Below are positions 10,882 to 59,803 of a stretch of DNA of 64,000 nucleotides, piece after piece. Numbering within the stretch: position 1 is the stretch's first letter; each line of letters opens with the position of its first letter. Both the position numbers and the translations under genes were made by a program. Source of the DNA: Chloroflexales bacterium ZM16-3 (lineage in GTDB: Bacteria > Chloroflexota > Chloroflexia > Chloroflexales > Chloroflexaceae); NCBI GenBank assembly GCA_004138175.2, contig RYFE02000021.1, positions 1 through 64,000 of the forward strand, read 5' to 3'. The notes beneath the pieces are model-generated. The model searched no databases. It worked only from the letters and a program-made list of their open reading frames with translations, and had not been told where the DNA came from.

Positions 10882-10937
10882 GGGGACAGGGGACAGGGGA
10901 CAGGGGATAGGGGACAGGAGACAGGGGACAGGGGACA
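10882..10937. repeat. heptanucleotide tandem repeat (GGGGACA)x8
   Basis: Eight consecutive 7-bp units start directly after the TGA stop of the giant kinase. Units 4 (GGGGATA) and 6 (GGAGACA) carry one substitution each. It belongs to the same length class as the GATTGCA, GGGAGTC and TGAATGT repeats elsewhere in the window. Confidence 0.92.
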
Positions 10938-11001
10938 GAAGCCTACTGCATAGCTCTCTCGATTCTGAAACAAGCCTACATCTTAGACTAGAGGTATCTC
11001 T

Positions 11002-13179: not shown

Positions 13180-14520
<1,341 letters not shown>

Positions 14521-14530
14521 GGATAAATAT

Positions 14531-15646
14531 ATGCGCCTAGAGAAGATTGAGCTTCGCCGGATCGTCCTGCCATTCCTGACGCCCTTCGAGACCAGCGGCT
14601 GGCGCGAGGAGGCCAACCACTCGGTGCTTGTGCGGCTCTTCGCCGATGGTGCGCAGGGCTGGGGCGAGGCCCCGGTGAGCACCGGCCCCTGGTATAACGA
14701 GGAGACCTACGCCACCGCCTGGGTGATGCTGCGCGACATCCTGGCCCCGATGGCCCTTGCGGCCGACCTGTCTGGCCCCGAGGATGTGGACGCGATCTTC
14801 GCCAGGGTGCGCGGCAACCGGATGGCCCGCGCGGGCCTGGAGTTCGCCGCGTGGGATCTCTTCGGCAAGCTGCGCGGCCAGAGCTTGAGCGCGATGCTCG
14901 GCGGCACTAGCGCGACGGTGGACGTGGGCGTGAGCGTGGGCGTGCAGAAGGATATCGAGACCCTGCTCCAGGTGGTCGGCGGCTACGTGGACGCGGGGTA
15001 CCGGCGGGTCAAGCTGAAGATTAAGCCGGGCTGGGACATTGAGCCGACCCGGGCGGTGCGTGAGCGCTGGCCGAACCTGAAGCTCCAGGTGGATGCGAAC
15101 AGCATCTACACCCTCGACGCGGCCGAGCACCTGGCCGCGCTCGACGCCTTCGACCTGCTGCTGATCGAGCAGCCCCTCGGCCACGACGATATCTTTGACC
15201 ACGCGAAGCTCCAGAAGCGCCTGCGCACCCCGATCTGCCTGGATGAGAGCATCGTCTCGCCAGAGCACGCGCGCTGGGCGCTGGAGATGGGGGCCTGCGG
15301 GGTGATCAACATCAAGCCCAGTCGGGTGGGCGGCCTCTCTGCGGCCAAGCAGATCCACGACATGGCCCAGGAGGCGGGCGTGCCTGTCTGGTGCGGCGGG
15401 ATGCTAGAGACCGGCATCGGCCGGGCGGCCAACGTGGCCCTGGCCAGCCTGCCCAACTTCACGCTGCCCGGCGACATCAGCGCGAGCGACCGCTATTTTG
15501 CGAGGGATGTCGTGTCGAACCCGTTCACCCTGAACGCAGACAGCACCCTGAGCGTGCCGACGGCACCGGGCAGCGGCGCCGAGGTGGACATGGACTACCT
15601 CGACAGCATTACGGCTGAATTACAGATTGTAGATTGCCGATTTTAG
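14531..15646 (+). CDS. menC: enolase-superfamily enzyme, o-succinylbenzoate synthase/N-acylamino acid racemase type
   Basis: A 371-residue member of the muconate-lactonising subgroup of the enolase superfamily. The N-terminal cap has VLPFLTPFETSGWREE, typical of the MenC/NAAAR branch. The barrel carries the general-base pair and metal ligands: KLKIKPG, QVDANSIY, LIEQPL, CLDESI and NIKPSRVGG. In menaquinone synthesis MenC dehydrates SHCHC to o-succinylbenzoate; NAAAR activity on N-acyl amino acids is an alternative, and no other men gene is near. It follows hflX by 10 bp. The last residues (QIVDCRF and the TAG) are encoded by the dispersed GATTGTA heptamer repeat, so the native C-terminus has been rewritten. 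Confidence 0.78.
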   Translation: MRLEKIELRRIVLPFLTPFETSGWREEANHSVLVRLFADGAQGWGEAPVSTGPWYNEETYATAWVMLRDILAPMALAADLSGPEDVDAIFARVRGNRMARAGLEFAAWDLFGKLRGQSLSAMLGGTSATVDVGVSVGVQKDIETLLQVVGGYVDAGYRRVKLKIKPGWDIEPTRAVRERWPNLKLQVDANSIYTLDAAEHLAALDAFDLLLIEQPLGHDDIFDHAKLQKRLRTPICLDESIVSPEHARWALEMGACGVINIKPSRVGGLSAAKQIHDMAQEAGVPVWCGGMLETGIGRAANVALASLPNFTLPGDISASDRYFARDVVSNPFTLNADSTLSVPTAPGSGAEVDMDYLDSITAELQIVDCRF

Positions 15647-15746
15647 ATTGTAGATTATAGCGCACGAATAGAGCCGCCGAGCAGATTCCTCATGGTGATC
15701 TGATCAGCGGCTCTGTATTTCAATCTGCAATCTACAATCTGCAATC
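15622..15746. repeat. inverted pair of GATTGCA heptamer repeats around a stem-loop
   Basis: Between two convergent genes. Left side: degenerate heptamers in direct orientation (15622-15656), overlapping the menC stop. Right side: four units in the opposite orientation (15721-15746). Between them an 8-bp stem, AGAGCCGC 15670-15677 with GCGGCTCT 15707-15714, could act as a bidirectional terminator. The whole block could fold into one long hairpin. Confidence 0.8.
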
Positions 15747-15747
15747 G

Positions 15748-16548
15748 CTAAGGCACAAGCGGCACGGTCGGGGTGGGCGTAAAGGCAGGCACCTGACAGG
15801 TAAGCTCCTTGAAGAGTGCGCTAGTATCGCGATCCTCAACCTCGATCAAGTAGGTGCCGGGGCGCTCATCGCCAATGCGCAGCCGGAGGCGATAGCTGCC
15901 ATCGTCGCGGCTGAACCCGCCGCCAACAGGCCGACCACCAAAGGTCACGATGAGAGCGACTGACGGATCGGCGCTACCATCAATGATAATCGTCTGCCCG
16001 GGGACACACAAGACTGCAGTGCTATCGAGAGGTGCCGTTGGTGTTGCGGTTGAGGTAGGGATCAGCCTGGTGGGCGAGCGCGTCGCTGAGGCAAACGCGG
16101 TCGCTATCGCGGTCTCGGTGAAGGTTGGCGTGACGGTGAACGTGGATGTCGGAGTGCTTGAGGGAGCCGCGCTTACTGGCGGAGGGATGGGCGTCGCCGT
16201 ATAGCCAGCCTGCTCTGTCTGGAGGAGCAGCGCCGTGCGTGTCTTCAGACAGTCCTCGTAGGGCGGGTAGGGGGGGGATAAGGACGCGCCATCTGTGGGG
16301 CAGCCCCGCATGATTCTGGCAGGATCTGTCGTTGGGCTGGTCAGTTCCCCTGTAGCCGTCTTCGCCTCGGCAGTCTGTGTGGCGAGACAGTCTGGGTAGG
16401 CGGGGTTGGCACCATCTGTGGGGCACTTTATGGCGGCGGAGACAGAAAATTCGCTCGGGCCAACTGGTGCGCCGATCAGGATAAGCACCAGCGTCGCGGC
16501 GACGATAGCGATCAGCGTGATTGGCCAGAAGAGGCTACGATGTGACAT
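15748..16548 (-). CDS. predicted exported/anchored Thr-Pro-Ser-rich protein
   Basis: A 266-residue protein I cannot assign to a named family. It begins with a short basic stretch and a single hydrophobic segment (LFWPITLIAIVAATLVLILIG, residues about 5-25), so it is exported or N-terminally anchored. Two imperfect repeats follow, CPTDGANPAYPDCLATQT and CPTDGASLSPPYPPYEDCL, each with a Cys pair. Then comes a Thr/Ser/Pro-rich linker (about 95-175), and a C-terminal region with IIIDGSADPSVALIVTFGG and RDDGSYRLRLRIGDERPGTYLIEV that looks like an Ig-like or carboxypeptidase-regulatory beta sandwich. An upstream in-frame ATG at 16620 exists, but the signal-like segment favours 16548. It is convergent with menC. 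Confidence 0.68.
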   Translation of the reverse strand: MSHRSLFWPITLIAIVAATLVLILIGAPVGPSEFSVSAAIKCPTDGANPAYPDCLATQTAEAKTATGELTSPTTDPARIMRGCPTDGASLSPPYPPYEDCLKTRTALLLQTEQAGYTATPIPPPVSAAPSSTPTSTFTVTPTFTETAIATAFASATRSPTRLIPTSTATPTAPLDSTAVLCVPGQTIIIDGSADPSVALIVTFGGRPVGGGFSRDDGSYRLRLRIGDERPGTYLIEVEDRDTSALFKELTCQVPAFTPTPTVPLVP

Positions 16549-16695
16549 ATGGGCGGTGCCTGCGTGCCGATGAGGGCGCACGATGATCTGCGGGAAGATT
16601 AACCTTCCATACTTTACCATAGGCGATGGGTAACAGGCAATATGCTAGAGGTCCTGAGTTTCTGGGGTTCGGGAGGCGGTGCCCCGATACAGAGG

Positions 16696-16725
16696 CTGGC
16701 AGCTTCCTGGGGCGTAGGGTATAAT
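16696..16725 (+). promoter_or_regulatory. putative dnaX promoter
   Basis: A consensus -10 TATAAT at 16720-16725 with CTGGCA (16696-16701) 18 bp upstream as a weak -35. Transcription would start about 25 nt before the dnaX ATG at 16756; AGAGG lies just ahead of that ATG. A stem of the TGGGG...GCCCC type (about 16664-16686) precedes it. Confidence 0.55.
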
Positions 16726-16755
16726 AGAAAAGATTTTTTCACCCCAGAGGCGCGC

Positions 16756-18492
16756 ATGGCTTCCCAGTCGCTTTATCGCAAGTGGCGATCACAAACATTC
16801 GACGAGCTCATCGGCCAGGAGCACGTCGTCCAGACTCTGCGCAACGCGATCATCGAGGAGCGGGTTGCGCACGCCTATCTCTTCACCGGCCCGCGCGGCG
16901 TCGGTAAGACGAGCATGGCCCGCCTATTGGCTAAGGCCGTCAACTGCACCGACCCGGCCCCGGCGGCGCGCCCATGCGGTCGCTGCGCAGCCTGCACCTC
17001 GATCGCCGATGGCCGTGCCGTGGATGTGATCGAGATGGACGCCGCCTCGCACACCTCGGTAGACGACGCCCGCGAGATCATCGAGCGCGTGCAGTTCCGG
17101 CCCGCCGAGCTGCAATCAAAAGTCTATATTATTGACGAGGTCCATATGCTCTCCACGGCAGCGTTCAACGCGCTGCTGAAGACCTTGGAGGAGCCGCCGG
17201 ACCACGCGATCTTCATTCTGGCGACGACAGAGGCCCACAAGATCCCGGCAACGATCCTCTCGCGCTGCCAGCGCTTCACCTTCACCCGGCACAGCGTGGC
17301 CGCCACCAGCGCGCACCTGCGCCAGATCGCGGCCGCCGAGCACCTGGAGCTTGACCCTGGCGCCCCAGAGGCGATCTCCCGCGCCGCCACCGGCAGTATG
17401 CGTGACGCCCTGGGCGTCCTGGAGCAGCTGGCCTCCTTCGGCCAGGGCGCCATCACCCTGGAGCAGGTGCAGAGCCTGCTGGGGATGACCGCCGCCGCCG
17501 AGGTTAATGCCCTGATCGCGGCGCTGCTCGACGGCGATGTCGGGGCGGCGCTGCGCGCCGTCAATGGCGTGGCCGACCAGGGGGCCGATATTCGTCAGTT
17601 CACCCGCGACCTTGTTGAGCGTCTGCGCGCCCTGCTGCTCTTCCGGGCCACGGGCGACCGGAGCCTGCTCGATGTTGGCGAGGACGAGCTGCTCGTCCTA
17701 GAGGGCTGGGCCGCCCGCGCAGACACGGCCGCCCTGGTGGAGTGGATCAAGCTCTTCAGCGGGCTCGACTTCCAGCTGCGCACGACGCCCTATGGCCACC
17801 TGCCCCTTGAGCTGGCGGTGGTTGAGTCGCTGGTGGGTGTGCGGGGGTCGGGGTTCGGGGGTCGGGAGTCAGGGGATAGGGGGCGGGCCGCCGCGCCGCC
17901 TGCGCGGGCCGTCGCCCCGCCGCGTCAGGCCGCGCCGCCCTCGCGGGCCGCCCCGCCGCCGGTGATGCCGCGCGCCGAGCCCGTGGCGCCGCCCGCCGCC
18001 GAGCCACCGCCTGAGTCGCCCGCGCCTGAGTCGCCCGCGCCTGAGTCGCCCGCAGAAGATCTGGCGGCGGCCCCGGTCGCGCCCGCCGCCGACCCCGAGG
18101 CGTTTATCGCCGCCAACGCCGACTTCACCGTGCTGGAGCGGATCGAGTCGCTGTGGGAGGAGATCAAGCGCGACGTGCGCCCGCGCAGCCCGACCGTGCA
18201 GGCCCTGCTGCACAGCATCAGGCCGATCGACGTGGAGAGCAACACGATCGTGCTGCTGGCATCATCGCAGTTCCATAAAGACAGCCTGGAGAAGCCGGTC
18301 AACCGCAAGATCGTAGAGGACGTGATCAACAAGCAGCTCGGCGGGATCTTCGCCATCCGCTGCACGATCGAGACGAAGGCCGAGAGCCGCGACCTGCGCG
18401 GGCAGATCCGCGAGGCCCGCAAGGATGAGCTGGTGCGCGCAGCTATGAATATTTTCGAGGCTCACATCGTTGATATTGAGTCAGAGACCTGA
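16756..18492 (+). CDS. dnaX: DNA polymerase III subunits gamma/tau
   Basis: A 578-residue clamp-loader ATPase. Seen: QSLYRKWRSQTFDELIGQEHV at the N-terminus, Walker A GPRGVGKTS (K51), zinc-binding cysteines C64, C74, C77 and C80, Walker B IIDEVHML, and ATTEAHKIPATILSRCQRF. Domain III is followed by a low-complexity Pro/Ala/Glu linker (about 360-445) and a C-terminal tau-like region. The start of the linker (VRGSGFGGRESGDRG) is encoded by the GGGAGTC-type heptamer repeat. The frame extends upstream to 16642, but the conserved N-terminus and the promoter place the start at 16756. It heads the operon dnaX-ybaB-recR-roadblock, a common bacterial order. Confidence 0.96.
   Translation: MASQSLYRKWRSQTFDELIGQEHVVQTLRNAIIEERVAHAYLFTGPRGVGKTSMARLLAKAVNCTDPAPAARPCGRCAACTSIADGRAVDVIEMDAASHTSVDDAREIIERVQFRPAELQSKVYIIDEVHMLSTAAFNALLKTLEEPPDHAIFILATTEAHKIPATILSRCQRFTFTRHSVAATSAHLRQIAAAEHLELDPGAPEAISRAATGSMRDALGVLEQLASFGQGAITLEQVQSLLGMTAAAEVNALIAALLDGDVGAALRAVNGVADQGADIRQFTRDLVERLRALLLFRATGDRSLLDVGEDELLVLEGWAARADTAALVEWIKLFSGLDFQLRTTPYGHLPLELAVVESLVGVRGSGFGGRESGDRGRAAAPPARAVAPPRQAAPPSRAAPPPVMPRAEPVAPPAAEPPPESPAPESPAPESPAEDLAAAPVAPAADPEAFIAANADFTVLERIESLWEEIKRDVRPRSPTVQALLHSIRPIDVESNTIVLLASSQFHKDSLEKPVNRKIVEDVINKQLGGIFAIRCTIETKAESRDLRGQIREARKDELVRAAMNIFEAHIVDIESET
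17843..17884. repeat. GGGAGTC-type heptamer repeat inside dnaX
   Basis: About six 7-bp units (GGGGGTC, GGGGTTC, GGGGGTC, GGGAGTC, AGGGGAT, AGGGGG) lie in the coding sequence at the junction between the DnaX ATPase/domain III body and its proline-rich linker. They read through in frame. Confidence 0.8.
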
Positions 18493-18564
18493 TCTTGTCG
18501 AAGCCCATGGCTTTGTGGTAAGCTATCCGAACGCAAGCGTACGAGCAAAAGCAAGGAGCGCCCG

Positions 18565-18876
18565 ATGAACCCACGTCAGCTTCAGCAGATGGCCCAGCAG
18601 ATGCAGCGTCAGATGCAGAAGATCCAGGAGGAGCTCGGCACGGCCATCGTCGAGGGGAGCGCCGGCGGCGGTGTGATCACGGTGAAGATGAACGGACATC
18701 GCGAGCTGCAGGCGATCACGATCTCCCCTGAGGCGATCGACCCCGACGATGTGGAGATGCTGCAGGATCTGCTGCTGGTCGCCTTTAACGACGCCTCGAA
18801 GAAGGCGCAGGATCTGGCCGAGCAGCGCATGGGCCCGCTCACCGGCGGCATGAAGGGCATCCCGGGGCTCTTCTAG
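18565..18876 (+). CDS. ybaB: YbaB/EbfC nucleoid-associated protein
   Basis: A 103-residue protein with the full YbaB/EbfC pattern: an N-terminal helix rich in Gln/Met (RQLQQMAQQMQRQMQKIQEE), the strand region VEGSAGGGVITVKMNGHREL, ISPEAIDPDDVEMLQDLLLVAFNDA and the C-terminal glycine-rich tail. Members bind DNA as dimers and are usually encoded between dnaX and recR, as here. AAGGAG precedes the ATG. Confidence 0.95.
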   Translation: MNPRQLQQMAQQMQRQMQKIQEELGTAIVEGSAGGGVITVKMNGHRELQAITISPEAIDPDDVEMLQDLLLVAFNDASKKAQDLAEQRMGPLTGGMKGIPGLF

Positions 18877-18923
18877 GAGGGTTCTAGGGAGGACTTGTCC
18901 TCCCTAGACTCTCCCCCTACGCT

Positions 18924-19541
18924 ATGACATCGCGCAGCGACAACAGCCTGATCGTCGAGCCGGTGGCGCGGCTGATCGAGGAGCTCGGCAAGCTCCCCGG
19001 CATCGGCCCGAAGACGGCATCGCGCCTGACCTTCTTCCTCCTGCGGGCGGAGGACGAGCAGGTGCGTGCGCTCGCCCAGGCCATCCAGGAGATGAAAGAG
19101 CAGGTGACGTTCTGCACGCGCTGCTTCAACATCACCGTCGGCGAGCTCTGTCCGATCTGCCAGAGCCCCAGCCGCGACCAGAGCAAGATCTGTGTGGTTG
19201 AGGAGCCGCTGGATGTGCTGGCGATCGAGCGGACTGGAGCCTTCCGTGGGCTCTACCACGTGCTCCACGGCCATATCGCGCCGCTTGAGGGGATCTACCG
19301 CGAGGATCTGAAGATCGACGCGCTGCTGGCCAGGGTGCGCGGCGAGCCGGTAGACGAGATCATTCTTGCCATGAACCCGAACACCGAGGGCGAGGCGACA
19401 GCATTCCTGCTCCTGCGTGACCTGGCGCCCCTCGGCGTGCGGGTGACGCGCCCGGCGCGCGGCCTGCCAACCGGCGGCGACCTGGAGTGGGCCGACCCAG
19501 ACACGCTTGGCTCTGCCCTGGAAGGCCGACGTGAGCTGTAG
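18924..19541 (+). CDS. recR: recombination mediator RecR
   Basis: A 205-residue RecR of normal length. It has the helix-hairpin-helix KLPGIGPKTASRLTFFLL, a C4 zinc finger (C64, C67, C76, C79), and a Toprim domain starting at ICVVEEPLDVLAIERTG with GVRVTRPARGLPTGGDLEWAD near the end. With RecO and RecF it loads RecA at gaps. It lies 47 bp after ybaB; the TAG stop is 14 bp before the next gene. Confidence 0.96.
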   Translation: MTSRSDNSLIVEPVARLIEELGKLPGIGPKTASRLTFFLLRAEDEQVRALAQAIQEMKEQVTFCTRCFNITVGELCPICQSPSRDQSKICVVEEPLDVLAIERTGAFRGLYHVLHGHIAPLEGIYREDLKIDALLARVRGEPVDEIILAMNPNTEGEATAFLLLRDLAPLGVRVTRPARGLPTGGDLEWADPDTLGSALEGRREL

Positions 19542-22298: not shown

Positions 22299-23968
22299 GG
22301 GGTAATCAAAAAGATGTACCCCGTCTGCGGGGGGATCTCGGCGAGCGGCGCGTAGCCCGCAAAGCTGCCCCCATCGCCCACGGTGAGGGCGGCGGGCGCG
22401 CCCGAGGGCGGGCCGTAGATCGGCGTGAGCTGGTAGATCCCGGCGGGCAGGCCGCTGGCTGCCGCGCCCAGGCTGAAGCCGCTGGCCGGGTCGCTGTCGA
22501 AGTTGATCACCACGAGGACACGGCTGTCGCCCTGGCTGCGGATGAAGGCGGCAAGCCCCTTCGCCTCCAGGGGCGTGAAGTCGCCGGTGGCCAGAGCGGG
22601 CGTGCCGACGTGCAGGTTGATCAGCGTACGGTAGGTGTTCAGTAGCGAGCCGGGGTCGCCGTCCTGGGAGGCCACGTTCTTCGTGGCCGCGTCGTCCTGG
22701 GGCGGCTCCCAGGGCGCGCCGCTGGTGAACCCGCCGCCCGCGCCGTCGGCCCACTGCATGGGGGTGCGGATGCGCTCATCGGGCTTCTTGCCGAGCATGC
22801 CGATCTCCTCGCCGTAGTAGACGAAGGGCAGGCCGGGCAGGGTCAGCAGGCCGAGGGCGGCCAGCTTGGCCTTGGGCATGCTGTCGCCCAGCACCGACAT
22901 GGCCCGGTTCTGGTCGTGGTTGGTCAGGAAGGGTGCCCAGCGCTGGGAGGGCAGCTTGCTGTAGGCATCGCTCACCGCCTTCATGTAGAGGCTGGAGATG
23001 CCCACGTTGGCCGCGCCGATGGTCTGCTTCGCCACCGCAAACTCGAAGTACATGTCGAGCTGGTCGGGGTAGTAGTCGGCCAGGGTCGAAGGCTTCCCGT
23101 CGAAGATCTCGCCGATGGTGAAGCTGCCGGGCGCGGTGGCCTGGAGGAAGGTGCGGTAGCCGCGCAGCCAGTTGTGGGTCTCGACCGTGTCGGCCTGGGC
23201 GGCCTGGTCCTCGATCAGGTGCTTGACCGCGTCCATGCGGAATCCGGCCGCGCCCATCTCATTCAGCCAGAAGGCGCTGATCTTCTCGGCCTCGGCCGTC
23301 ACCGCCGGGTTGCGGTAGTTCAGGTCGGGCATCTCGCTCCAGAACATCGCGTAGTAGTACTCGTCGGCCAGCGGCGATTTGTACCAGGCCTCGCCGCCGA
23401 ACGGGCCTCTGTAGGTCGGCTTCTGCTTGGCCCAGAGGTAGTAGTCGCGGTAGGGCGAGGCCGGGTCGCGCAGGGCGGCCTGGAACCAGGGGTGCTGCGA
23501 TGAGGTGTGGTTGAGCACGAGGTCGAGGATAACCTTGATCCCGCGCTTATCGGCCTCGGCCACCAGCCGCTTGAAGTCGTCGTTGCTGCCATAGGCCGGA
23601 TCGACCGTGTAGTAGTCGGTGACATCGTAGCCGTGGTAGCTGGCCGCCTTCATGATCGGCATGAGCCAGATACAGCTCGCCCCCAGGTCGCCGGTCGTCG
23701 CCGGGTCGCCATCGCTGATGTAGTCGAGCTTCTGGATGAGTCCGTTGAGGTCGCCAACACCGTCGCCGTCGCTGTCGTAGAAGGAGCGCACGAAGACCTC
23801 GTAGCAGACGGCGCTGTCCCACCAGCTAGCTTGTAGGGAGTCGGGAGGCGGGAGTCGGGAGTCGGGGGTTGGGGATTGGGAGGCGGGAGTCGGGAGTCGG
23901 GGGGGCGGCGAGGCGCAGGCGGCTAGGGTGAGCAGGATCAGCAGGAGGGCGGAGATATGGCGGGGCAT
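22295..23968 (-). CDS. secreted GH13 alpha-amylase-family lipoprotein
   Basis: A 557-residue glycoside hydrolase of family 13, extracellular. The N-terminus is a lipoprotein signal (HISALLLILLTLAAC, lipobox LAAC), followed by a Pro/Ser/Thr linker encoded by the GGGAGTC heptamer repeat. The barrel motifs are complete: CYEVFVRSFYDSDGDGVGDL, VILDLVLNHTS, nucleophile in GFRMDAVKHL, acid/base in FTIGEIFDG, stabiliser in LTNHDQNR. It probably cleaves alpha-1,4-glucans or malto-oligosaccharides (oligo-1,6-glucosidase-like subfamily possible). GGGGAT... precedes the ATG weakly; the upstream in-frame region is repeat DNA. The stop lies in a dispersed palindrome. Confidence 0.92.
   Translation of the reverse strand: MPRHISALLLILLTLAACASPPPRLPTPASQSPTPDSRLPPPDSLQASWWDSAVCYEVFVRSFYDSDGDGVGDLNGLIQKLDYISDGDPATTGDLGASCIWLMPIMKAASYHGYDVTDYYTVDPAYGSNDDFKRLVAEADKRGIKVILDLVLNHTSSQHPWFQAALRDPASPYRDYYLWAKQKPTYRGPFGGEAWYKSPLADEYYYAMFWSEMPDLNYRNPAVTAEAEKISAFWLNEMGAAGFRMDAVKHLIEDQAAQADTVETHNWLRGYRTFLQATAPGSFTIGEIFDGKPSTLADYYPDQLDMYFEFAVAKQTIGAANVGISSLYMKAVSDAYSKLPSQRWAPFLTNHDQNRAMSVLGDSMPKAKLAALGLLTLPGLPFVYYGEEIGMLGKKPDERIRTPMQWADGAGGGFTSGAPWEPPQDDAATKNVASQDGDPGSLLNTYRTLINLHVGTPALATGDFTPLEAKGLAAFIRSQGDSRVLVVINFDSDPASGFSLGAAASGLPAGIYQLTPIYGPPSGAPAALTVGDGGSFAGYAPLAEIPPQTGYIFLITP
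23836..23905. repeat. GGGAGTC heptamer repeat inside the GH13 gene
   Basis: Ten consecutive 7-bp units in perfect phase (GGGAGTC, GGGAGGC, GGGAGTC x2, GGGGGTT, GGGGATT, GGGAGGC, GGGAGTC x2, GGGGGGG) encode the linker between the lipobox cysteine and the catalytic domain. Confidence 0.9.
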
Positions 23969-35763: not shown

Positions 35764-35889
35764 GGGAGTCAGGAGTCGGGAGTCGGGAGTTGGGAGTCGG
35801 GAGTCGGTGATGCAACTGTGTATTGACAACTCCCAGGGGGCTCACCCGGTGCTCGGCCCTGACTCCCGACTCCCGACTCCCGACTCCTG
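35764..35889. repeat. inverted GGGAGTC heptamer blocks between livF and livH
   Basis: The left block (35764-35808) has about six GGGAGTC-type units, the right block (35859-35889) four in the opposite orientation. About 50 bp between them include TGTATTGACAA. The pair can form a long hairpin. Confidence 0.88.
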
Positions 35890-45940: not shown

Positions 45941-48900
45941 TTACAGATCGGTTACACGGGGCAGGGAGGCGTCGCCGTGCCGGATGCGCTCGTGCAGCTC
46001 GCGGGTAGCGCGGGCGGGAGGGAGCCCAAGCTCGGCGTCGAGGGTGTCGGCGCAGCGCTGGTAGCAGCGCAGAGCCTGGGGCCGGTTGCCCTGGCGGGCG
46101 TGCACGAGCATCTGGAGGCGGTAGGCCCGCTCCCAGCAGCTATCTTCGGCCAGGATGCGCCGACAGACCTCCAGGGCCACATCGTTCTGGCCGAGCTCGA
46201 CCAGGGCGGCGGCCAGCCGGTCGGCGGCGCGCAGGAAGACGGCGCGCAGACGCTCGCGCTCGGCGGCGGCCCAGTCCTCGTAGGCCGTGTCGGGCAGGTA
46301 CCCGCCCGCGTAGAGGCCGAGCGCCCGCGTCAGGGCGGCCACACCCTCGTCTGCACTGCCTACGTCAAGCATGCCCAGCCCCTCGGTGCAGGCGTCGGCG
46401 AAGACCGCACAGTCGAGCCAGAGGTCGGCCTCGGGGCGCAGCCGGTAGGCGCTGCCGTCGCGGGCGATGTAGGCGGCGGGCGTGTCGGCGGCGCGGGACG
46501 GCTCCAGCGCCTTGTTTAGCGCGTTCAGCGCCACCTTAAAGTCGCGGCCGGCGGCCTCGCGGCCAAGCTGCGGCCAGAGCAGATCCACAATCTCCTCGCG
46601 CTGGAGCCAGCGCCCCCGGCGGGTGACAAGCAGCTGGAAGAGCTGGCGGGCCTTGTCGCGCTGCCAGGCCCGCGCATCGATCTCCTGGGCACCGCGCCAG
46701 ACCTGGAAGGCCCCCAGCGTCTGCACGCGCAGCTGGTAGCCGGGGTGGGACTGAAGCTCGCCCAGGCCGAGCCCGGCCAGCAGGCGGCCGGCATAGTCGC
46801 CGTGGGCGCTGCGGGCGCGGGCGGCCAGCAGAAGCGGCACGGCCCGGCGCGGGTCGGGCAGACCGAGGAAGCTTGACCTCATCAGCAAGAAGTCGTAGCC
46901 GTTAGCCGCACAGAGGGCCAGCAGGTCGTCCACACAGGCGGCGGCGTGCTGGCGCTGGCCCAGGTCGCCGTGGGCGATGGCCATCCAGAGACGGGCGGCG
47001 GCGCGGCCGAAGCTATCGCCGCACTCGCGCATCAGGGCCAGGGCTCGCTCTAGGATCTTCAGACCCTCGACAGGGCGCTCGGCCAGCACATAGCTCGCGC
47101 CCAGCGTCAGCTCGATCATCGCGGCCACCCACTGGTCGCCAGCCCACAGGCTGATCTCAGCGCCCTCGCGGGCGCAGCGCGCGGCGGACTCCAGATCTCC
47201 CGAGAAGCCATAGGCCCGCGTGAGCCCCCAGTTAGCCTCGGCGCGGATGCGGCGCACTGCCAGGCGGTCGCCCAGGGCGATAGCGCGCTGGTAGATCGCC
47301 AGCGACTCGTCGCGCGGGGGCGGGCCACCGGCGCGCAGCTGCAAGGCGTGCCCCAGGCGCATATGGGCCACGGCGGTGATGAAGGGCGATCCAAGCCGCT
47401 CGCCAACGGCGACCCCGATCTCGGCCCGCTCGGCGGCCCGCTCGGCCTCACCGCAGAAGCTGTGGATAAGCGAGAGCACCAGCACCGTCTCGCGGTGTCC
47501 GCGCGGCGTGTGGCGCTGGCCGCGCTCGCTGGCCAGGCGCTCCTCCTCGGCCCAGCCCTCTAGGATAGCCCTAGCCTCGGCCAGACGCCCCGTGCGCAGC
47601 TTCACCCGCACGCTCAGCAGATCCTCGACCGGCCCCTCCTCGCGCAGGGTGCGCGCCTCGGCCCGCAGCGCCTCGGCCTCGTCCGGCTTGCCCATGTTCA
47701 GCTTATTCTCGGCCAGCAGATCAAGCAGACGCGCGCGGGCATGCCGGTCGTCCAGGCCATCGCTGATCCGCAGCGCCTCTTGGAGCAGGCTCTCGGCCTG
47801 AGCTGGGAGCACCTGATCGATATAGACCAGCGCCTGGCCGCGCAGCGCCCGGCTGACCCCGGGCTGATCGCGGCGCTCGCGGCAGGCCGCCTCAGACTGC
47901 GCATACCAAGAGAGCGCCTCGTCGAAGCGCGAGCGCAGGCGGTAGAGGTCGCCCATATAGCCGATCAGGCGCGGGCGTGCGCTGAACACCTCGGAGGGCA
48001 AGGCATCGATCCAACCGGCCAGGGTGTCGAGCCGCCCGGCGCGCAGGGCCGTCTCGCCAGCGCGGGCCACAGCCGCCGCCGCCTCATCATAGTCGCGTGC
48101 GGCCAGCCAATGATAGATCGCCTCCTCCTCATCGCCCCGGTCAGCATAGAAGTGCGCCGCGCGGCGGCGGCGATCCTCCATGGCCGGGTCGGAGGCGGCC
48201 TGCTGGCGCAGGAAGTCGTGGAAGAGGTGATGATAGCGCAGCAGCTCGGGGCCGATCTCCACCACGAAGAGGTCACGGTCGCGCAGCTGCTCGATCATAG
48301 CCGCGCCGTCGTGGGCCTGGCGCACCGCGTCGCAGGCGGCCGGGGTCAGCTCGCGCAGCAGGGCCGTCTCACGCATAAATGCGGCCAGGCCAGCGGGCTG
48401 GCGGCCCAGCACATCGCCAGCCAGATAGTCGAAGAGCGCCGCCAGCGAGGCCGGCCGGTCGGTGAGCAGGTCGGACAGGCCACGGGACGAGCCGCCGCGC
48501 AGACCCTGCCAGACAAGCTGGAGCGCGATCGGCCAGCCCTCGGTCTGGTGGGCTAGGGCGGCCACATCGGCGTCGGCCAGGCCCATGCCATAGACCTCGC
48601 GGAACAGGGCGGCGATCTCATCGGCGTCGAAGGCTAGCGCCTCGCGGCCCAGCTCCAGCACCTCGCCACGGGCGCGCCAGCGCAGCAGCTCGCCGCCAGC
48701 CAGCGGGTAGCGGCTAGATATGACCACCCGCAGGTCACGCGGGGCGTAGGCGATCAGGCGGTCGGTGAGCGCGCGGATCTCGGGCGAGCCTGCCACAAAG
48801 TGGTAGTCATCAAGCACCAGGATGGCCGGGCCAGCCAGAGCCTCGCCCACCGCATTAAGCAGAGCGTCGAGCGCAGCCGTCCAAGCTGCCGAACCGGCCT

Positions 48901-49222
48901 CGCCCCGTCGCTCGCGCAGCGTAGCGGCGGGCAGGTCGGAGAGACTAGGCAGAACGGCGGCGCAGGCGGCGATCAGATAGGAGAGGAATATCTGCGGGTC
49001 GGTATCGCTCTCCCCGACGCTATACCAGAGCAGGGGCAGCTCGCCGTCGGCCAGCGCCACCAGCGCGGTCGTCTTACCGTAGCCGGTGCCAGCCTGAAGC
49101 AGCGTAACCCTGTAGTCCAGCGCCTCGCGCAAGCGCGCGGCCAGCGCCGGGCGCGGCAGCAGCAGCCGGTGCAGGCGCGGGGGGGCCAGCTTCGCGCGGA
49201 GCAGGAGGGTCTCGTTTGGCAT
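45941..49222 (-). CDS. MalT-like ATPase transcriptional regulator with C-terminal wHTH-BTAD
   Basis: A 1093-residue regulator. The N-terminus is the MalT/LAL-type pattern LLRAKLAPPRLHRLLLPRPAL, with Walker A LLQAGTGYGKTTALVAL, Walker B ILVLDDYHFV and VVISSRYPL. The middle third is a TPR-like helical solenoid (about 380-800). The C-terminus has an OmpR-like winged helix (LRVQTLGAFQVWRG...QLLVTRRGRWLQREEIVDLLWP) and a BTAD domain (YLPDTAYEDWAAAERERL...ELGLPPARATRELHERI), instead of the LuxR HTH of MalT. Such regulators respond to small inducers and are common in Chloroflexota. ATG 49222 is chosen because MPNETLLLRAKL begins the conserved N-terminus; the frame extends to 49285. It precedes the acyl-CoA/Liv operon on the same strand and is its likely regulator. 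Confidence 0.9.
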   Translation of the reverse strand: MPNETLLLRAKLAPPRLHRLLLPRPALAARLREALDYRVTLLQAGTGYGKTTALVALADGELPLLWYSVGESDTDPQIFLSYLIAACAAVLPSLSDLPAATLRERRGEAGSAAWTAALDALLNAVGEALAGPAILVLDDYHFVAGSPEIRALTDRLIAYAPRDLRVVISSRYPLAGGELLRWRARGEVLELGREALAFDADEIAALFREVYGMGLADADVAALAHQTEGWPIALQLVWQGLRGGSSRGLSDLLTDRPASLAALFDYLAGDVLGRQPAGLAAFMRETALLRELTPAACDAVRQAHDGAAMIEQLRDRDLFVVEIGPELLRYHHLFHDFLRQQAASDPAMEDRRRRAAHFYADRGDEEEAIYHWLAARDYDEAAAAVARAGETALRAGRLDTLAGWIDALPSEVFSARPRLIGYMGDLYRLRSRFDEALSWYAQSEAACRERRDQPGVSRALRGQALVYIDQVLPAQAESLLQEALRISDGLDDRHARARLLDLLAENKLNMGKPDEAEALRAEARTLREEGPVEDLLSVRVKLRTGRLAEARAILEGWAEEERLASERGQRHTPRGHRETVLVLSLIHSFCGEAERAAERAEIGVAVGERLGSPFITAVAHMRLGHALQLRAGGPPPRDESLAIYQRAIALGDRLAVRRIRAEANWGLTRAYGFSGDLESAARCAREGAEISLWAGDQWVAAMIELTLGASYVLAERPVEGLKILERALALMRECGDSFGRAAARLWMAIAHGDLGQRQHAAACVDDLLALCAANGYDFLLMRSSFLGLPDPRRAVPLLLAARARSAHGDYAGRLLAGLGLGELQSHPGYQLRVQTLGAFQVWRGAQEIDARAWQRDKARQLFQLLVTRRGRWLQREEIVDLLWPQLGREAAGRDFKVALNALNKALEPSRAADTPAAYIARDGSAYRLRPEADLWLDCAVFADACTEGLGMLDVGSADEGVAALTRALGLYAGGYLPDTAYEDWAAAERERLRAVFLRAADRLAAALVELGQNDVALEVCRRILAEDSCWERAYRLQMLVHARQGNRPQALRCYQRCADTLDAELGLPPARATRELHERIRHGDASLPRVTDL

Positions 49223-49237
49223 GGGCCTATTATAATA
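49223..49237 (-). promoter_or_regulatory. putative leaderless promoter of the regulator gene
   Basis: On the minus strand TATTATAATAGGCCCATG: a consensus TATAAT ends six bases before the ATG, or TATTAT nine bases before it. The transcript would start at or next to the ATG, so the mRNA would be leaderless; there is no Shine-Dalgarno sequence. Confidence 0.5.
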
Positions 49238-49305
49238 CTGCGCCCCGGCTCCGCGTTGCACCCGTGCGCGGTGCGGGAGTTGCATTGCTACGAATCTACG
49301 CCTTT

Positions 49306-49479
49306 GTCCAACCTTGGACAGTCACTGTCCAGGGGGTAGACATGGCATGTCCAGGGGGTGGACATGCCATGTCCAGGGGGTGGACATGCCATGTCCAGGG
49401 GGTGGACATGCCATGTCCAGGGGGTGGACATGCCATGTCCAGGGCCGGACGGTGACTGTCCAGGGGGTGGACAGTGAGC
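49306..49479. repeat. array of eight 21-22-bp palindromic units
   Basis: Units start at 49306, 49327, 49349, 49371, 49393, 49415, 49437 and 49458. The consensus is GTCCAGGGGGTGGACATGCC plus AT. Each unit is an inverted repeat GTCCA-N5-TGGAC; across unit junctions GGACATG-C-CATGTCC is also a perfect palindrome. Units 3 to 6 are identical; the outer units diverge, with the first and seventh ending in CACT/GACT instead of CCAT. The array lies between the divergent regulator and AlkX-like genes, 84 bp upstream of the regulator ATG, and each unit spans about two helical turns. Confidence 0.95.
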
Positions 49480-49667
49480 ATAGTGCCACGGCATGTTCGT
49501 CCATGACCGCTGCCCGGCGGCTGCGGGGAGCGAACACTGATGCGTGCGTCGTCAAAACCTTGCGCTACTCCTGAGCATGGCAGGTGCGCAGCCGCAAAAG
49601 CGGACCGATTCCGTCAGGTTATGCTGGTATGATGGAGTTGTGTGATACCCAACCCCCAACCCCCATT

Positions 49668-50885
49668 ATGAAGATTACCCCCGACGCCGTCCAATATATG
49701 CTGCTCGCCGCCCAGGGACTGCTGACGCCGCTAACGGTGCCCGCCACAAAGGCCGATGTGCTGGACGCCATCCGGCGCATGGGCGTGCTACAGATCGACA
49801 CCATCCACATCGTGGCCCGCAGCCCCTACCTGGTACTCTGGGGTCGCCTGGGCCAGTACGAGCCGACATGGCTCGACGAGCTGCTCGCCGAGGGAGCGCT
49901 CTTCGAGTACTGGGCCCACGCCGCCTGCTTCCTGCCCAGCGAGGACTACGGCCTCTTTCGGCGGCGCATGCTCAGCCAGCGCGTCGAGACCGACTCGGCA
50001 TACCAGTGGGTGCGGGCCAACCCCGAGGAGACCGATGCCGTGCTCGCGCGGGTGCGCGCCGAGGGGCCGCTGCGCGTCGCCGACTTCGACGGCAAGGGCG
50101 GCGGCGGCGGCTGGTGGGACCACAAGCCCGCGAAGACGGCCCTGGAGTGCCTGTTCGATCTGGGCCACCTGATGATCGCCCGCCGCGAGCGCTTCCACCG
50201 GGTCTACGACCTTAGCGAGCGCGTGATGCGCGGCTGGGACGACGCGGCCACGCCGAGCGCCGCCGAGGTGCGCCGCGAGCTGCTGCTGCGCGGCGTGCGC
50301 GCCCTCGGCGCGGCCCCGGCCCGCTGGGTGCCCGACTACTACCGCCAGAAGGATAAGCGCGCCTGCCTGGCCGAGCTGGCGAGCCTGGTCGAGGAGGGCG
50401 CGCTCCATGCGGTCGAGGTCGCGGGCTGGGATGAGCCGGCCCTGGTTCACCCCGACAATCTGGGCCTGCTGGAGCAGGCGGAGGGAGGCGCGCTGACGCC
50501 GACCGTGACGACACTGCTCTCGCCCTTCGACCCGCTGGTCTGGGACAGAGACCGGGCACACGAGCTGTTCGACTTCTTCTACCGGATCGAGGTCTACACC
50601 CCGGCGGCGAAGCGGGCCTACGGCTACTTCACCTTGCCCATCCTACACCGTGGGCGGCTGGTCGGTCGGCTCGACCCGAAGGCCCACCGCCCCGATAGCA
50701 TCTTCGAGGTGAAGGCCGTCCACCTGGAGCCGGGGGTTACGCCCGACGACGGGCTGGTGGCAGGGCTGGCCGGGGCGCTGCGGGACTGCGCCGCCTGGCA
50801 CGGCACCCCCGAGGTGATCATTCGCCAGAGCGACCCGCCCGAGCTGGCGGGGATGCTGCGCTGCACTGAGGCATTGAGGCGCTGA
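49668..50885 (+). CDS. YcaQ/AlkX-like winged-helix DNA glycosylase
   Basis: A 405-residue protein of the HTH_42/YcaQ family. The catalytic motif Q-phi-D is visible as QID at residues 42-44 in RRMGVLQIDTIHIVARSPYL, which matches the AlkX (YcaQ) subgroup rather than AlkZ (Q-phi-Q). Further family blocks: LFEYWAHAACFLPSEDYGLF, WWDHKPAKTALECLFDLGHL, LLSPFDPLVWDRDRAHELF, RAYGYFTLPILHRGRLVGRL and DPKAHR. Relatives unhook interstrand DNA crosslinks or remove bulky alkyl adducts. ATG 49668 starts the conserved N-terminus; the frame is open to 49584. The last codons (CTEALRR, stop) lie in an octamer repeat. Confidence 0.86.
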   Translation: MKITPDAVQYMLLAAQGLLTPLTVPATKADVLDAIRRMGVLQIDTIHIVARSPYLVLWGRLGQYEPTWLDELLAEGALFEYWAHAACFLPSEDYGLFRRRMLSQRVETDSAYQWVRANPEETDAVLARVRAEGPLRVADFDGKGGGGGWWDHKPAKTALECLFDLGHLMIARRERFHRVYDLSERVMRGWDDAATPSAAEVRRELLLRGVRALGAAPARWVPDYYRQKDKRACLAELASLVEEGALHAVEVAGWDEPALVHPDNLGLLEQAEGGALTPTVTTLLSPFDPLVWDRDRAHELFDFFYRIEVYTPAAKRAYGYFTLPILHRGRLVGRLDPKAHRPDSIFEVKAVHLEPGVTPDDGLVAGLAGALRDCAAWHGTPEVIIRQSDPPELAGMLRCTEALRR

Positions 50886-50888
50886 GGT
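50865..50888. repeat. short CCTCAGYG-type octamer repeat at a gene end
   Basis: Three 8-bp units (CTGAGGCA, TTGAGGCG, CTGAGGTT) overlap the 3' end of the AlkX-like gene. This is the reverse complement of the octamer array at 37434-37489. Confidence 0.7.
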
Positions 50889-51613
50889 TACATTGCCTGA
50901 TCAGCACTCCAGCGGGCTAGCGTATCAGGGTTGATCGGCTCCAGCACCATCAGATCGGCGTCGTGGCGCACAAGCATCGCGAAGTCGAAGCGGTCGACTG
51001 CGGCTGCGTGGGCGACATCGGCGGCCGGCAGCGCCGGGTACGCAGGGGTGCCGAAGCGCCGCCCGAAGTCGGAGGCGGCGACCCGCGCCGCAAACACGCT
51101 CGGGTCCGGCGTCTGCCCGCGTAGCAGCGCCGTCAGATAGTCGGCGCAGGCCCGATCCTCGTCGCCGTCGCGGTCGGACCAGTCCCCAGTCACCACCAGT
51201 GTCACCTGGGCGGGGCGCAGGCGCAGCAGCAGGCGAGCCGTTGCGACGGCGCAGACGAGGCTGCCGGCGAGCAGCAGATCGGCGGTGGCACAGCGCACCA
51301 GCCCCTTGACGCCGGCGGCGGTGCAGTGGATCAGCGTCTTATCGACTAGATCATGGCCGGCCACCCGCGACGGCGCGTTGTCGAAATCGAAGCCTGGGAT
51401 CGCCCCGCCCCCGCCAACCCCGCCCATCGTGAGCGCGCCGGGCAGACGCTCACGCATCTGGAAGGCGTCATCCGGCGACTCAGCAAGATAAATCTGACGC
51501 GCGCCGGCGGCGAAGGCGTAGGCGGCGGTAGAGAACGAGCGCAGCACGTCGATCACAACCACTGCGCCGCTGTCTCCGCCGCAGCGGGCCAGCGTTGTCT
51601 GGATGATCTCCAT
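50888..51613 (-). CDS. comB: 2-phosphosulfolactate phosphatase family (ComB-like)
   Basis: A 241-residue ComB-family protein. Seen: VVVIDVLRSFSTAAYAFAAGARQIYLAES near the N-terminus, RLPGALTMGGVGGGGAIPGFDFDNAPSRV, LIHCTAAGVKGLVRCATADLLLAGSLVCA and LVVTGDWSDRDGDEDRACADYL. ComB hydrolyses 2-phosphosulfolactate in coenzyme M biosynthesis; bacterial homologues are widespread outside CoM synthesis and their substrate is often unknown. ATG 51613 is preceded by GAGGAG; the upstream ATG at 51643 lacks this. Convergent with the AlkX-like gene, two bases apart. Confidence 0.85.
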   Translation of the reverse strand: MEIIQTTLARCGGDSGAVVVIDVLRSFSTAAYAFAAGARQIYLAESPDDAFQMRERLPGALTMGGVGGGGAIPGFDFDNAPSRVAGHDLVDKTLIHCTAAGVKGLVRCATADLLLAGSLVCAVATARLLLRLRPAQVTLVVTGDWSDRDGDEDRACADYLTALLRGQTPDPSVFAARVAASDFGRRFGTPAYPALPAADVAHAAAVDRFDFAMLVRHDADLMVLEPINPDTLARWSADQAM

Positions 51614-51883
51614 CGTAGGTTGCTCCTCCGCATACACAAGCACCCTTCAGGGTACGTTATAGCACGGTTTTACTGCGATGGGGCGCGGACATATAACCAA
51701 GAATGTGGCTATAATGGCAGGAACGCATACGTCGCCCTATCCTCATTGCCCGGCGGCGGCTCCAGCCGCCGACGCCTCATTGCGAAGCCGCACACGGCGG
51801 CCTGTTCAGGCTCCCGTTGGGCGGCCTTCGCCATAAGAGCCCGTCCGTCGCTCGGCCGGGCGCAGACGAAAGCGAGCCCATCT
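51614..51883. other. divergent intergenic region upstream of GH31
   Basis: No gene seen. A TATAAT at 51710-51715 on the plus strand could be the -10 box of the GH31 gene, giving a leader of about 160 nt. That leader has a tight GC stem (CGGCGGCT at 51754 with AGCCGCCG ending 51771, 2-nt loop) and a larger imperfect stem (about 51782-51831, GCGAAG...CTTCGC). Confidence 0.45.
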
Positions 51884-54358
51884 ATGGCAGATGTCTCATC
51901 ACGCATTGCGCCGCGCCCGATTGATACGCGCTATGTCACTCGGCTCGCTCGGGTGACAGCTGTTAGCCGAACCGACAGCGGCGTCCTGGCCCAGGTGGAT
52001 CAGGAGCTGCTGCGGGTCGATGTCATCCGCGACGATATCGTGCGGCTGAAGATCAGCCGGGGCGGCAGCTTTGACGAGACGCCCACATTTGCTGTCTGCG
52101 CCGACCTAGCCGGGTGCGCCGCGCCCGCGTTCAGCGTCGAGGAGGATGCCCATGCGGTGCGGGTACGCACCGCGCAGCTTGTTGTCACGATCAGGCGCGA
52201 TCCCTTCTGCCTCGACGCCCACCGCGCCGACGGCAGCGCGATCTTTGAGACCTGGCGGGACGCTGACGGCACCCCCTGGCCCTACGCTACCCTGAATGAC
52301 TCGTTCGTGCTCAAGCGGCGCTGCCTCCGCGAGGACGCCTTCCTGGGCCTTGGCGAGAAGACCGGTCGGCTGAACCGCCGAGGGCGTGACTTCACGCTCT
52401 GGAATAACGATGTGCTCGACCCGAACAGCGAGCGCGAGTTCGCCGCAGGCCGCGCCGATGACGACCCGCGCGCCCACCGCACCAGCGTCGACTACGACCC
52501 CTACTATGTCGCCATCCCCTTTTTCTACCACTTGGCCCACGCCACGAGCATGGCGGCCGGGATCTTCCTCGACAACAGCTACCGCGCCCAGGTGGACTTC
52601 TCGCCCGCGACGGCCTACCACATCCAGTTCCAGGGCGGCCAGTACACCGAGTACCTCTTCGCCGGCCCCAGCATGCGCACCATCCTAGAGGGCTATACCT
52701 GGCTGACTGGGCGCATGCAGCCGCCGCCGCTGTGGGCGCTAGGCTACCACCAGTGTCGCTGGCACATCTACGACCAGGAGATGTTTGAGCAGCTGGCCCG
52801 CCAATATCGCGAGCGCGACCTGCCCTGCGACGCGCTCTGGCTCGACATCGACTACATGCGCGGCTTCCGGGTCTTTACCTGGGACGAGCAGCGCTTCCCT
52901 GATGTGCCCGCCATGCTTGCCCGGTTGACCGAGCAGGGCTACCGCACGATCTCTATCATCGACCCGGGCGTCAAGTATGAGCCCGGCTACCCGGTCTTCG
53001 ACCAGGCCGTGGAGCGCGATGTGCTCTGCAAGACCGAGGGCGGCGATATCTATATCGGCCAGGTCTGGCCGGGCAAGACCGCCTTCCCCGACTTTGTCAC
53101 CCCGGAGGCGCGGGCCTGGTGGGGCGAGCTGAACGCGGCCCACGTCCAGTCTGGCTTGGCCGGGATCTGGAACGATATGAACGAGCCTGCGACCGGCGAT
53201 ATCAAGCCGGACGCGATGCGCTTCGACCGGGGGCGGGCCGCGCACGCGCGCTACCACAACCAGTACGCGCTGCTGATGGCGATGGGCACGACCGACGGGC
53301 TGCTGCGGGCTATGCCCGACCGGCGGACCTTCGTGCTATCGCGGGCCGGGTTCGCTGGCATCCAGCGCTACGCCGCCAACTGGATGGGCGACAACCTCTC
53401 GCGCTGGGATCATCTCTGGCTGAGCATGCCTATGGCGATGGGCATGGGGCTCTCGGGCCAGCCCTTCATCGGCGCGGACATCGGTGGCTTCGACGGCGAC
53501 AGCAATGCCGAGCTGCTCACCCGCTGGGTGCAGTACGGTGCGCTGACGCCCTTCTGCCGCAACCACAGCGCGACGGGGACAACTGACCAGTACCTCTGGT
53601 CCTTCGGCGAGGCCCACGAGGATCTGGCCCGCCGGGCGATCCAGCTGCGCTACCGGCTGATGCCCTACCTCTACGCGGCCTTCATGCGGGCTGCCGAGAG
53701 CGGCGAGCCGGTGCAGCAGCCGCTGATCTTCGCCTTTCAGGACGACCTCACCCTGCGCGATATCGACGACCAGTACCTGCTGGGCAGCCAGCTGCTGGTG
53801 GCGCCGGTCTACAGCCCTGGCACGACAGCCCGCCAGGTCTACCTGCCTGCGGGCACATGGTACGACTGGCATAGCGGGGAGCGCCTGGCCGGCGGGCGCT
53901 TCGTGATCGCGCAGACGCCGATGGAGCACATCCCGCTCTACGCTCGCGGCGGCGCGGTGATCCCGATGTGGCCAGACGCGCCGCCCTCGACGGCGGGCTA
54001 CCACCCGAGCCTGATCGAGCTGCACATCTTCATCCCGACCGAGGACGGCACCACTCACTCGCTGCTGCACGAGGATGACGGGCTCAGCTTCGCGTTCCGC
54101 GATGGTGCCCACTATCGGACGACGCTCAGCCTTGAGCGGGCCGGCGACCGGCTCAGCCTACGGGCGACGGTGGACGGCCATGGCTACCCGGAGTTCGTCC
54201 GCCAGGCATTCGCGCTCGTCTTCCACGGCGGCGCGCCCGCCACGGTGCGCGCGGACGGGCAGACGATCGCGGTGCAGGATGGCCGATACAGGGTGGCCAA
54301 CACCGGGGCCGCTATGCTGGTCGATGTCGAGATCGCGGGCGAGGCAGGCGGGCGGTAG
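51884..54358 (+). CDS. GH31 alpha-glucosidase
   Basis: An 824-residue family 31 glycoside hydrolase with no signal peptide, so probably cytoplasmic. N-terminal beta domain with FLGLGEKTGRLNRRGRDFTLWN and YHIQFQGGQYTEYLFAGPSM, then the barrel: ALGYHQCRWHIYDQE, LDIDYMRGFRVFTWDEQRFP, nucleophile Asp431 in GIWNDMNEPA, acid/base Asp503 in WMGDNLSRWDHL, and the C-terminal VAPVYSPGTTARQVYLPAG. It releases glucose (or xylose) from the non-reducing end of oligosaccharides. The following genes are xylA and xylB, so an alpha-xylosidase role is a reasonable alternative. ATG 51884 starts the conserved region; open frame further upstream is antisense to comB. Confidence 0.92.
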   Translation: MADVSSRIAPRPIDTRYVTRLARVTAVSRTDSGVLAQVDQELLRVDVIRDDIVRLKISRGGSFDETPTFAVCADLAGCAAPAFSVEEDAHAVRVRTAQLVVTIRRDPFCLDAHRADGSAIFETWRDADGTPWPYATLNDSFVLKRRCLREDAFLGLGEKTGRLNRRGRDFTLWNNDVLDPNSEREFAAGRADDDPRAHRTSVDYDPYYVAIPFFYHLAHATSMAAGIFLDNSYRAQVDFSPATAYHIQFQGGQYTEYLFAGPSMRTILEGYTWLTGRMQPPPLWALGYHQCRWHIYDQEMFEQLARQYRERDLPCDALWLDIDYMRGFRVFTWDEQRFPDVPAMLARLTEQGYRTISIIDPGVKYEPGYPVFDQAVERDVLCKTEGGDIYIGQVWPGKTAFPDFVTPEARAWWGELNAAHVQSGLAGIWNDMNEPATGDIKPDAMRFDRGRAAHARYHNQYALLMAMGTTDGLLRAMPDRRTFVLSRAGFAGIQRYAANWMGDNLSRWDHLWLSMPMAMGMGLSGQPFIGADIGGFDGDSNAELLTRWVQYGALTPFCRNHSATGTTDQYLWSFGEAHEDLARRAIQLRYRLMPYLYAAFMRAAESGEPVQQPLIFAFQDDLTLRDIDDQYLLGSQLLVAPVYSPGTTARQVYLPAGTWYDWHSGERLAGGRFVIAQTPMEHIPLYARGGAVIPMWPDAPPSTAGYHPSLIELHIFIPTEDGTTHSLLHEDDGLSFAFRDGAHYRTTLSLERAGDRLSLRATVDGHGYPEFVRQAFALVFHGGAPATVRADGQTIAVQDGRYRVANTGAAMLVDVEIAGEAGGR

Positions 54359-54363
54359 CGTTT

Positions 54364-54398
54364 GATTGCAGATTGCAGATTGCAGATTGCAGATTGAG
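54364..54398. repeat. GATTGCA heptamer repeat, five units
   Basis: Four perfect GATTGCA units and one GATTGAG immediately after the GH31 stop codon and 26 bp before the xylA start. Only direct units are present, so no hairpin forms here. Confidence 0.92.
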
Positions 54399-59751: not shown

Positions 59752-59803
59752 GATTGCAGATTGCAGATTGCAGATTGAAAGGCGCAATCTGCAATCTGCA
59801 ATT
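59752..59803. repeat. inverted GATTGCA heptamer blocks
   Basis: Four direct units (59752-59779) and three inverted ones (59785-59803) with a 5-nt loop form a near-perfect hairpin between the convergent S41 protease and GGDEF genes. Confidence 0.92.

Follow-up and report, generated by a model that had tools for sequence, protein, structure and literature searches.

The eight-unit array at positions 49306–49479 of the analysed DNA (the window, the whole stretch of 64,000 nucleotides) is probably, at roughly two chances in three, a dispersed noncoding tandem satellite of the VNTR kind that expands and contracts, and thus an element of a known kind. Bacterial VNTR minisatellites are built of tandem copies with a homogeneous centre and diverged edges, and the same architecture was found in this array, hereafter array A. 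The seed would have been a short intergenic palindrome, multiplied via replication slippage or unequal recombination; judging by the unit pattern, these processes may have kept the central copies identical while the edge copies drifted. From there the unit would have come to occupy a further, unrelated site of the genome, where a near-identical array (array B) was observed, and sampling shows that it is part of a broader set of intergenic 21–22 bp arrays with different units in the genus. A palindromic seed multiplied in either of these ways would account for the homogeneous centre, the drifting edges, the apparent absence in relatives and the varying number in a related family. Effects on adjoining promoters, by spacing, hairpins or cruciforms, are proposed to be incidental. 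The features are listed below, in window coordinates unless stated otherwise.

45941–49222, minus strand: large regulator (N part MalT-like, followed in the list of domains by TPR, weak Trans_reg_C and BTAD).
49226–54396, no strand: segment differing from the closest relative (G004), with array A at its left end.
49306–49479, no strand: array A, 21–22 bp units of GTCCA-N4/5-TGGAC plus a 7-bp spacer.
49306–49326: edge unit 1, diverged, 21 bp, with the spacer AGTCACT where the central units have ATGCCAT.
49349–49436, no strand: central units 3–6, all identical, GTCCAGGGGGTGGACATGCCAT.
49437–49457: unit 7, diverged, 21 bp, with the spacer GGTGACT.
49629–50885, plus strand: AlkZ-like protein (PF06224), start uncertain (49584 or 49629).
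C40:26238–26380 (= L021:6239–6381), same genome: array B, near-identical unit, 6.5 copies, period 22.

The units of array A, each opening with GTCCA, were read by their start positions (49306, 49327, 49349, 49371, 49393, 49415, 49437 and 49458; successive spacings 21, 22, 22, 22, 22, 22 and 21 bp). TRF reported 49326–49473 with a period of 22, 6.8 copies and a score of 231, and with genes predicted by our own gene caller the copies are tandem, near-identical and noncoding. The first-pass annotation had placed an eight-unit palindrome array between a regulator and an Alk-type gene, and both the array and its neighbours were found as described, the latter being a minus-strand regulator of MalT/SARP-like type and a plus-strand AlkZ-like gene (PF06224). 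Its unit formula, GTCCA-N5-TGGAC, holds for most units; in units 1 and 7 the centre is 4 bases long, and the right arms of units 2 and 7 read TAGAC and CGGAC. Similarly, its 22 bp stand as the period, within which the palindrome itself covers only 15 bp, and the identity which it gave to the central units is limited to units 3–6, unit 2 being two bases away from them. The recent expansion of the central units that it suggested fits the pattern. At up to one mismatch, GTCCA-N5-TGGAC was matched 7 times in the whole window, 6 of these inside array A, compared with a mean of 1.52 and a largest count of 5 in the shuffled control.

The spacer holds the centre of a second dyad, GGACATG-C-CATGTCC, which gives symmetry centres at 11-bp intervals in the central part of array A. 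In unit 1 the spacer is altered from ATGCCAT to AGT-C-ACT and stays symmetric although each arm departs from the central units at two positions, which counts against the satellite reading. Of the six complete starts in array B, five have GTCTA, an arm change without a matching change in the other arm, and the dyad symmetry is therefore not strictly kept. Folding of both strands of array A is much stronger than in shuffled sequences (z −8.7 to −11.1); an RNA or cruciform role was dropped, as strong folding is expected of any palindromic array and is not functional evidence. CRISPR arrays are defined by identical repeats with unique, longer spacers; array A was rejected as one, its spacers being just 7 bp long and repeating together with the unit.

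Arrays A and B share 94% identity over 119 bp, and the likeness is confined to the arrays. Array B is flanked by a small ORF without a Pfam match and by an MmeI-like type IIG restriction enzyme. When the genome was searched with GTCCAGGGGGTGGAC at up to one mismatch, all 11 places fell within arrays A and B; at two mismatches, 49 places were found and 44 for the reversed control, i.e. alike. The pattern GTCCA-N4..6-TGGAC occurred at 14 places genome-wide, 7 of them in arrays A and B, compared with 55 for the reversed pattern, which is a different word; single sites are thus not enriched in the genome. The single-site search advised by the first-pass annotation therefore gave nothing in its favour, the sole near-match of the window outside array A lying at 54545.

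A position between divergent genes is the usual place of an operator, which counts against the satellite reading. On the operator explanation, dimers of the MalT/SARP-like regulator, or of another factor, would occupy the dyads and regulate either one of the divergent promoters or the two together. We regard this as unlikely, although the dyad symmetry, a period near two turns and a gap of 84 bp between array A and the preferred start of the regulator speak for it in addition to the position. The start at 49222 was preferred because likeness to G004, the closest relative (88–92% identical over shared blocks), extends only to 49225; a TATAAT-like word stands just upstream of this start in both genomes, in surroundings that are otherwise unlike (by eye). 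The Trans_reg_C match of the regulator falls below its cut-off. According to the accessible part of PMC5930380, the repeats bound by SARP-type factors have a spacing of 11 bp, and array A resembles such operators in showing multiples of 11 bp beside a BTAD-domain gene. It differs from them in lacking direct repeats at 11 bp: identity at an 11-bp lag was 0.45 compared with 0.25 for shuffled units (P 0.11), on which the heptameric direct repeats of SARP operators were rejected. The further idea that bound dimers would line up on one DNA face holds only loosely, since with a helical repeat of 10.5 bp the starts of the units move from 0 to 171 degrees, onto opposite faces, and stacking would be imprecise.

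Against the operator also stands array B, the same array beside unrelated genes, together with the single-site counts and the results from related promoters and genomes. Upstream stretches of 400 bp were searched for five regulators, orthologous or nearest, and gave no good site, the best having 3 mismatches in each case, like shuffles (mean 3.4, smallest 2). At up to one mismatch, the two-unit pattern of array A was found in 0 of the 81 other genomes of the order searched, mostly drafts, which can lose tandem repeats, and in none of 60 relatives. The expected conservation was accordingly not seen, and with the unit arrayed at an unrelated locus, no enriched single sites and no array found in the relatives searched, the autoregulatory operator of the first-pass annotation is unsupported. 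It was rejected as first choice on the conservation, single-site and upstream-site results, and the tempting operator was removed from the annotation of the regulator. A reservation concerns an assembly gap of 100 bases in G004 (L082:6940–7039), 110–209 bp upstream of its regulator, one of the five mentioned, which could hide an array and leaves the absence there unproven; this gap and the draft state of most relatives count against the satellite reading too. Another 100-base gap of G004 (L114:3643–3742) directly adjoins a 21-bp array, and arrays may thus be under-counted in drafts.

A phage or plasmid origin was rejected, since array A gave no match among phages and plasmids (BLAST, low-complexity filter on) and a pattern of 1.5 units gave none in viral contigs. 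The sole GTDB contig match, L040 of Cryobacterium luteum, is a short 11-bp repeat and was treated as chance.

In G004, a single contig carries both the regulator and the block that begins at window position 54396; the stretch of about 5 kb separating the two is a different one, with a gene for a sugar-transporter-like binding protein among its contents. Array A thus stands at the left edge of a segment that has been exchanged (49226–54396). Array B sits in about 11.5 kb missing from G004 at that place, and both arrays therefore fall in segments not common to G004; because intergenic DNA diverges fast, these differences do not establish an array as the cause of exchange. To the right of array A, the AlkZ-like gene is accompanied by a 2-phosphosulpholactate phosphatase-like gene; this pair (window 49579–51666) is located on another contig in G004 (C13), which suggests that the two genes moved together.

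The nearest known counterparts of the satellite reading are the satellites of Chloroflexus aurantiacus, described in the accessible part of PMC6749651 as scattered, species-specific and probably transposed. As there, one unit stands in tandem at several genome places and is specific to a species or genus; the largest family of C. aurantiacus is, according to the same part of that source, built from a heptamer, (GATAGRA)n, in contrast to the 21–22 bp unit with dyad symmetry described here. Very unlikely, in our view, is a REP/BIME-like element, which a REP-associated tyrosine transposase (RAYT), working on hairpins of single-stranded DNA, would have inserted and amplified. Array A does consist of palindromic intergenic repeats, REPs likewise being extragenic palindromes that are sometimes clustered (PMC2817692, PMC3733652, both as far as accessible), GTAG-type REPs are reported from Chloroflexi, the presumed phylum of the window organism, in the available part of PMC3733652, and a RAYT-like ORF lies beside one 21-bp array (L214:12426–12953; NF047646, E 2.9e-19, 69.4 bits at a cut-off of 80). 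With this ORF as the query, however, tblastn in 2.14 Mb found only the ORF itself, and no RAYT copy near array A or B in the 27% of the genome searched. REPs usually exceed 100 copies per genome, as stated in the accessible part of PMC2817692, whereas here all places with up to one mismatch fall in two arrays and singles are not enriched; a REP/BIME identity was rejected on this high-copy feature. Within L214:9528–15203, HsdR and HsdS of a type I restriction system enclose the RAYT-like ORF and the 21-bp array.

For the wider set to which the satellite of array A would belong, TRF was run on a sample of 1.67 Mb, 27% of the window genome (1.70 Mb minus about 26 kb counted twice). Arrays were defined as intergenic by our own gene caller, of period 21–22, with a TRF score above 150 and not composed of heptamers, a definition set after the first defence neighbours had been seen; left out were L163 (score 83), L179 and L129 (heptamers) and L160 (at a stretch end, likely a coding repeat). 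Five arrays were obtained, namely A, B, L137:2717–2844, L140:13816–14095 and L214:13309–13413. Unit sequences differ among the intergenic 21–22 bp arrays of the window genome and its congeners, and the notion that all 21-bp arrays are palindromic was discarded, several having weak dyads. Tandem pairs of a second unit family, GAGGATGCRCGC-N9 (L137, L214), turned up in 5 of the 82 genomes from the order, namely 5 of 6 in the genus of the window and 0 of 76 others (reversed control 0), with two or more places in each carrier genome. At a congener locus common to G001, G003 and G005 (92–99% identical) the array is kept, with at least 5, 4 and 9 motif starts, respectively, the G001 count being a minimum as the array meets the end of the sequenced stretch examined. 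Copy number thus varies at a shared congener site, as in VNTR minisatellites, this being seen for the GAGGATGCRCGC-N9 family, a different one from that of array A. The repeated 21–22 bp period, near two helical turns, is beyond the prediction of slippage alone, which counts against the satellite reading, and hints at a helical constraint. Among sources short of most subscription journals, no title or abstract on the group was found to treat such 21–22 bp arrays; the genus-specific set that they form might be useful for the typing of strains.

Genes flanking the five arrays of the window genome were compared with PADLOC at E ≤ 1e-40, and 4 of 10 matched: the MmeI-like type IIG enzyme, Cas3d, PbeA and HsdS (L214; scanned from an alternative start, not that of our gene caller), with the arrays 5′ of each. 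Four of the five arrays therefore adjoin anti-phage defence genes, which counts against the satellite reading; array A has no PADLOC neighbour. As the first control, 88 genes flanking 48 arrays of period 7–16 were used (2 of 90 were dropped, L223 repeating L222), and nine PADLOC families (PD-T4-6, mad6) were matched by one member each; a kinase motif is present in 1 of the 88 genes, and these matches are therefore probably one or two proteins, control tallies being by family and not by protein. The second control comprised 120 random genes, among which 13 families (five names in all) were matched by one member each, probably by four proteins, and one of the matches is the HsdR beside array L214. 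Fisher's test for flanking genes (4 of 10 and 2 of 88) gave P = 8e-4, and by array, with the three arrays of G004 added (4 of 8 and 2 of 48), P = 0.0025. The arrays of G004 at L200 adjoin an alpha-amylase, a PfkB and a HipA_2-like gene, and no defence gene was recognised at ten congener loci, whose flanks were read by eye and are in several cases incomplete.

The leaning towards defence genes is a lead, noticed afterwards and with n = 5. An explanation built on it, that functional cis-arrays accompany exchangeable accessory genes, especially those of defence, and set their expression or exchange, draws on the excess over the controls and is distinctly improbable in view of that late and small sample, the missing PADLOC neighbour of array A, the congener loci and the L200 neighbours. 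Equally doubtful is the broader idea that the arrays of the genus hold their period at two helical turns (21–22 bp) while the unit is freely exchanged, and might act as cis-elements of horizontally exchanged accessory or defence genes, e.g. by serving as spacers that can be tuned, as platforms for silencer binding or as sites of exchange. If the leaning held in complete genomes, a common cis-signal of accessory genes would be suggested.

Several minor observations were made alongside. At L137 (C40:330001–350000), a type I-D CRISPR-Cas region with a WYL protein and long CRISPR-like arrays at 13505–19327 was noted, in which Cas3d begins 13 bp downstream of the 21-bp array. A family of small proteins (L021:5708–6079, L230:927–1229, L231:547–849 and L239:926–1228) is encoded in each case 160–270 bp downstream of a 21–22 bp array, a biased observation as 3 of the 4 loci were chosen for their arrays; the two members scanned (L021, L239) have no Pfam match. 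The L021 gene lies beside array B, and another small gene of this family is present at the locus shared by G001, G003 and G005. Further stretches similar to that gene in DNA were found in G004 on contigs where neither unit family was detected, so the link between gene and array is not obligatory. Heptamer tandem arrays (GGGAGTC, GATTGCA and others) are many in the window (10881–10938, 23836–23901, 35764–35807, 54364–54396 and 59752–59777), one of them marking the right end of the exchanged segment, and a 24-bp tandem array of four copies stands at the window edge (1–95). A dispersed repeat of about 175 bp, 83–92% identical, was found at L081:5112–5285 and at about 40 places in the window genome (G000).
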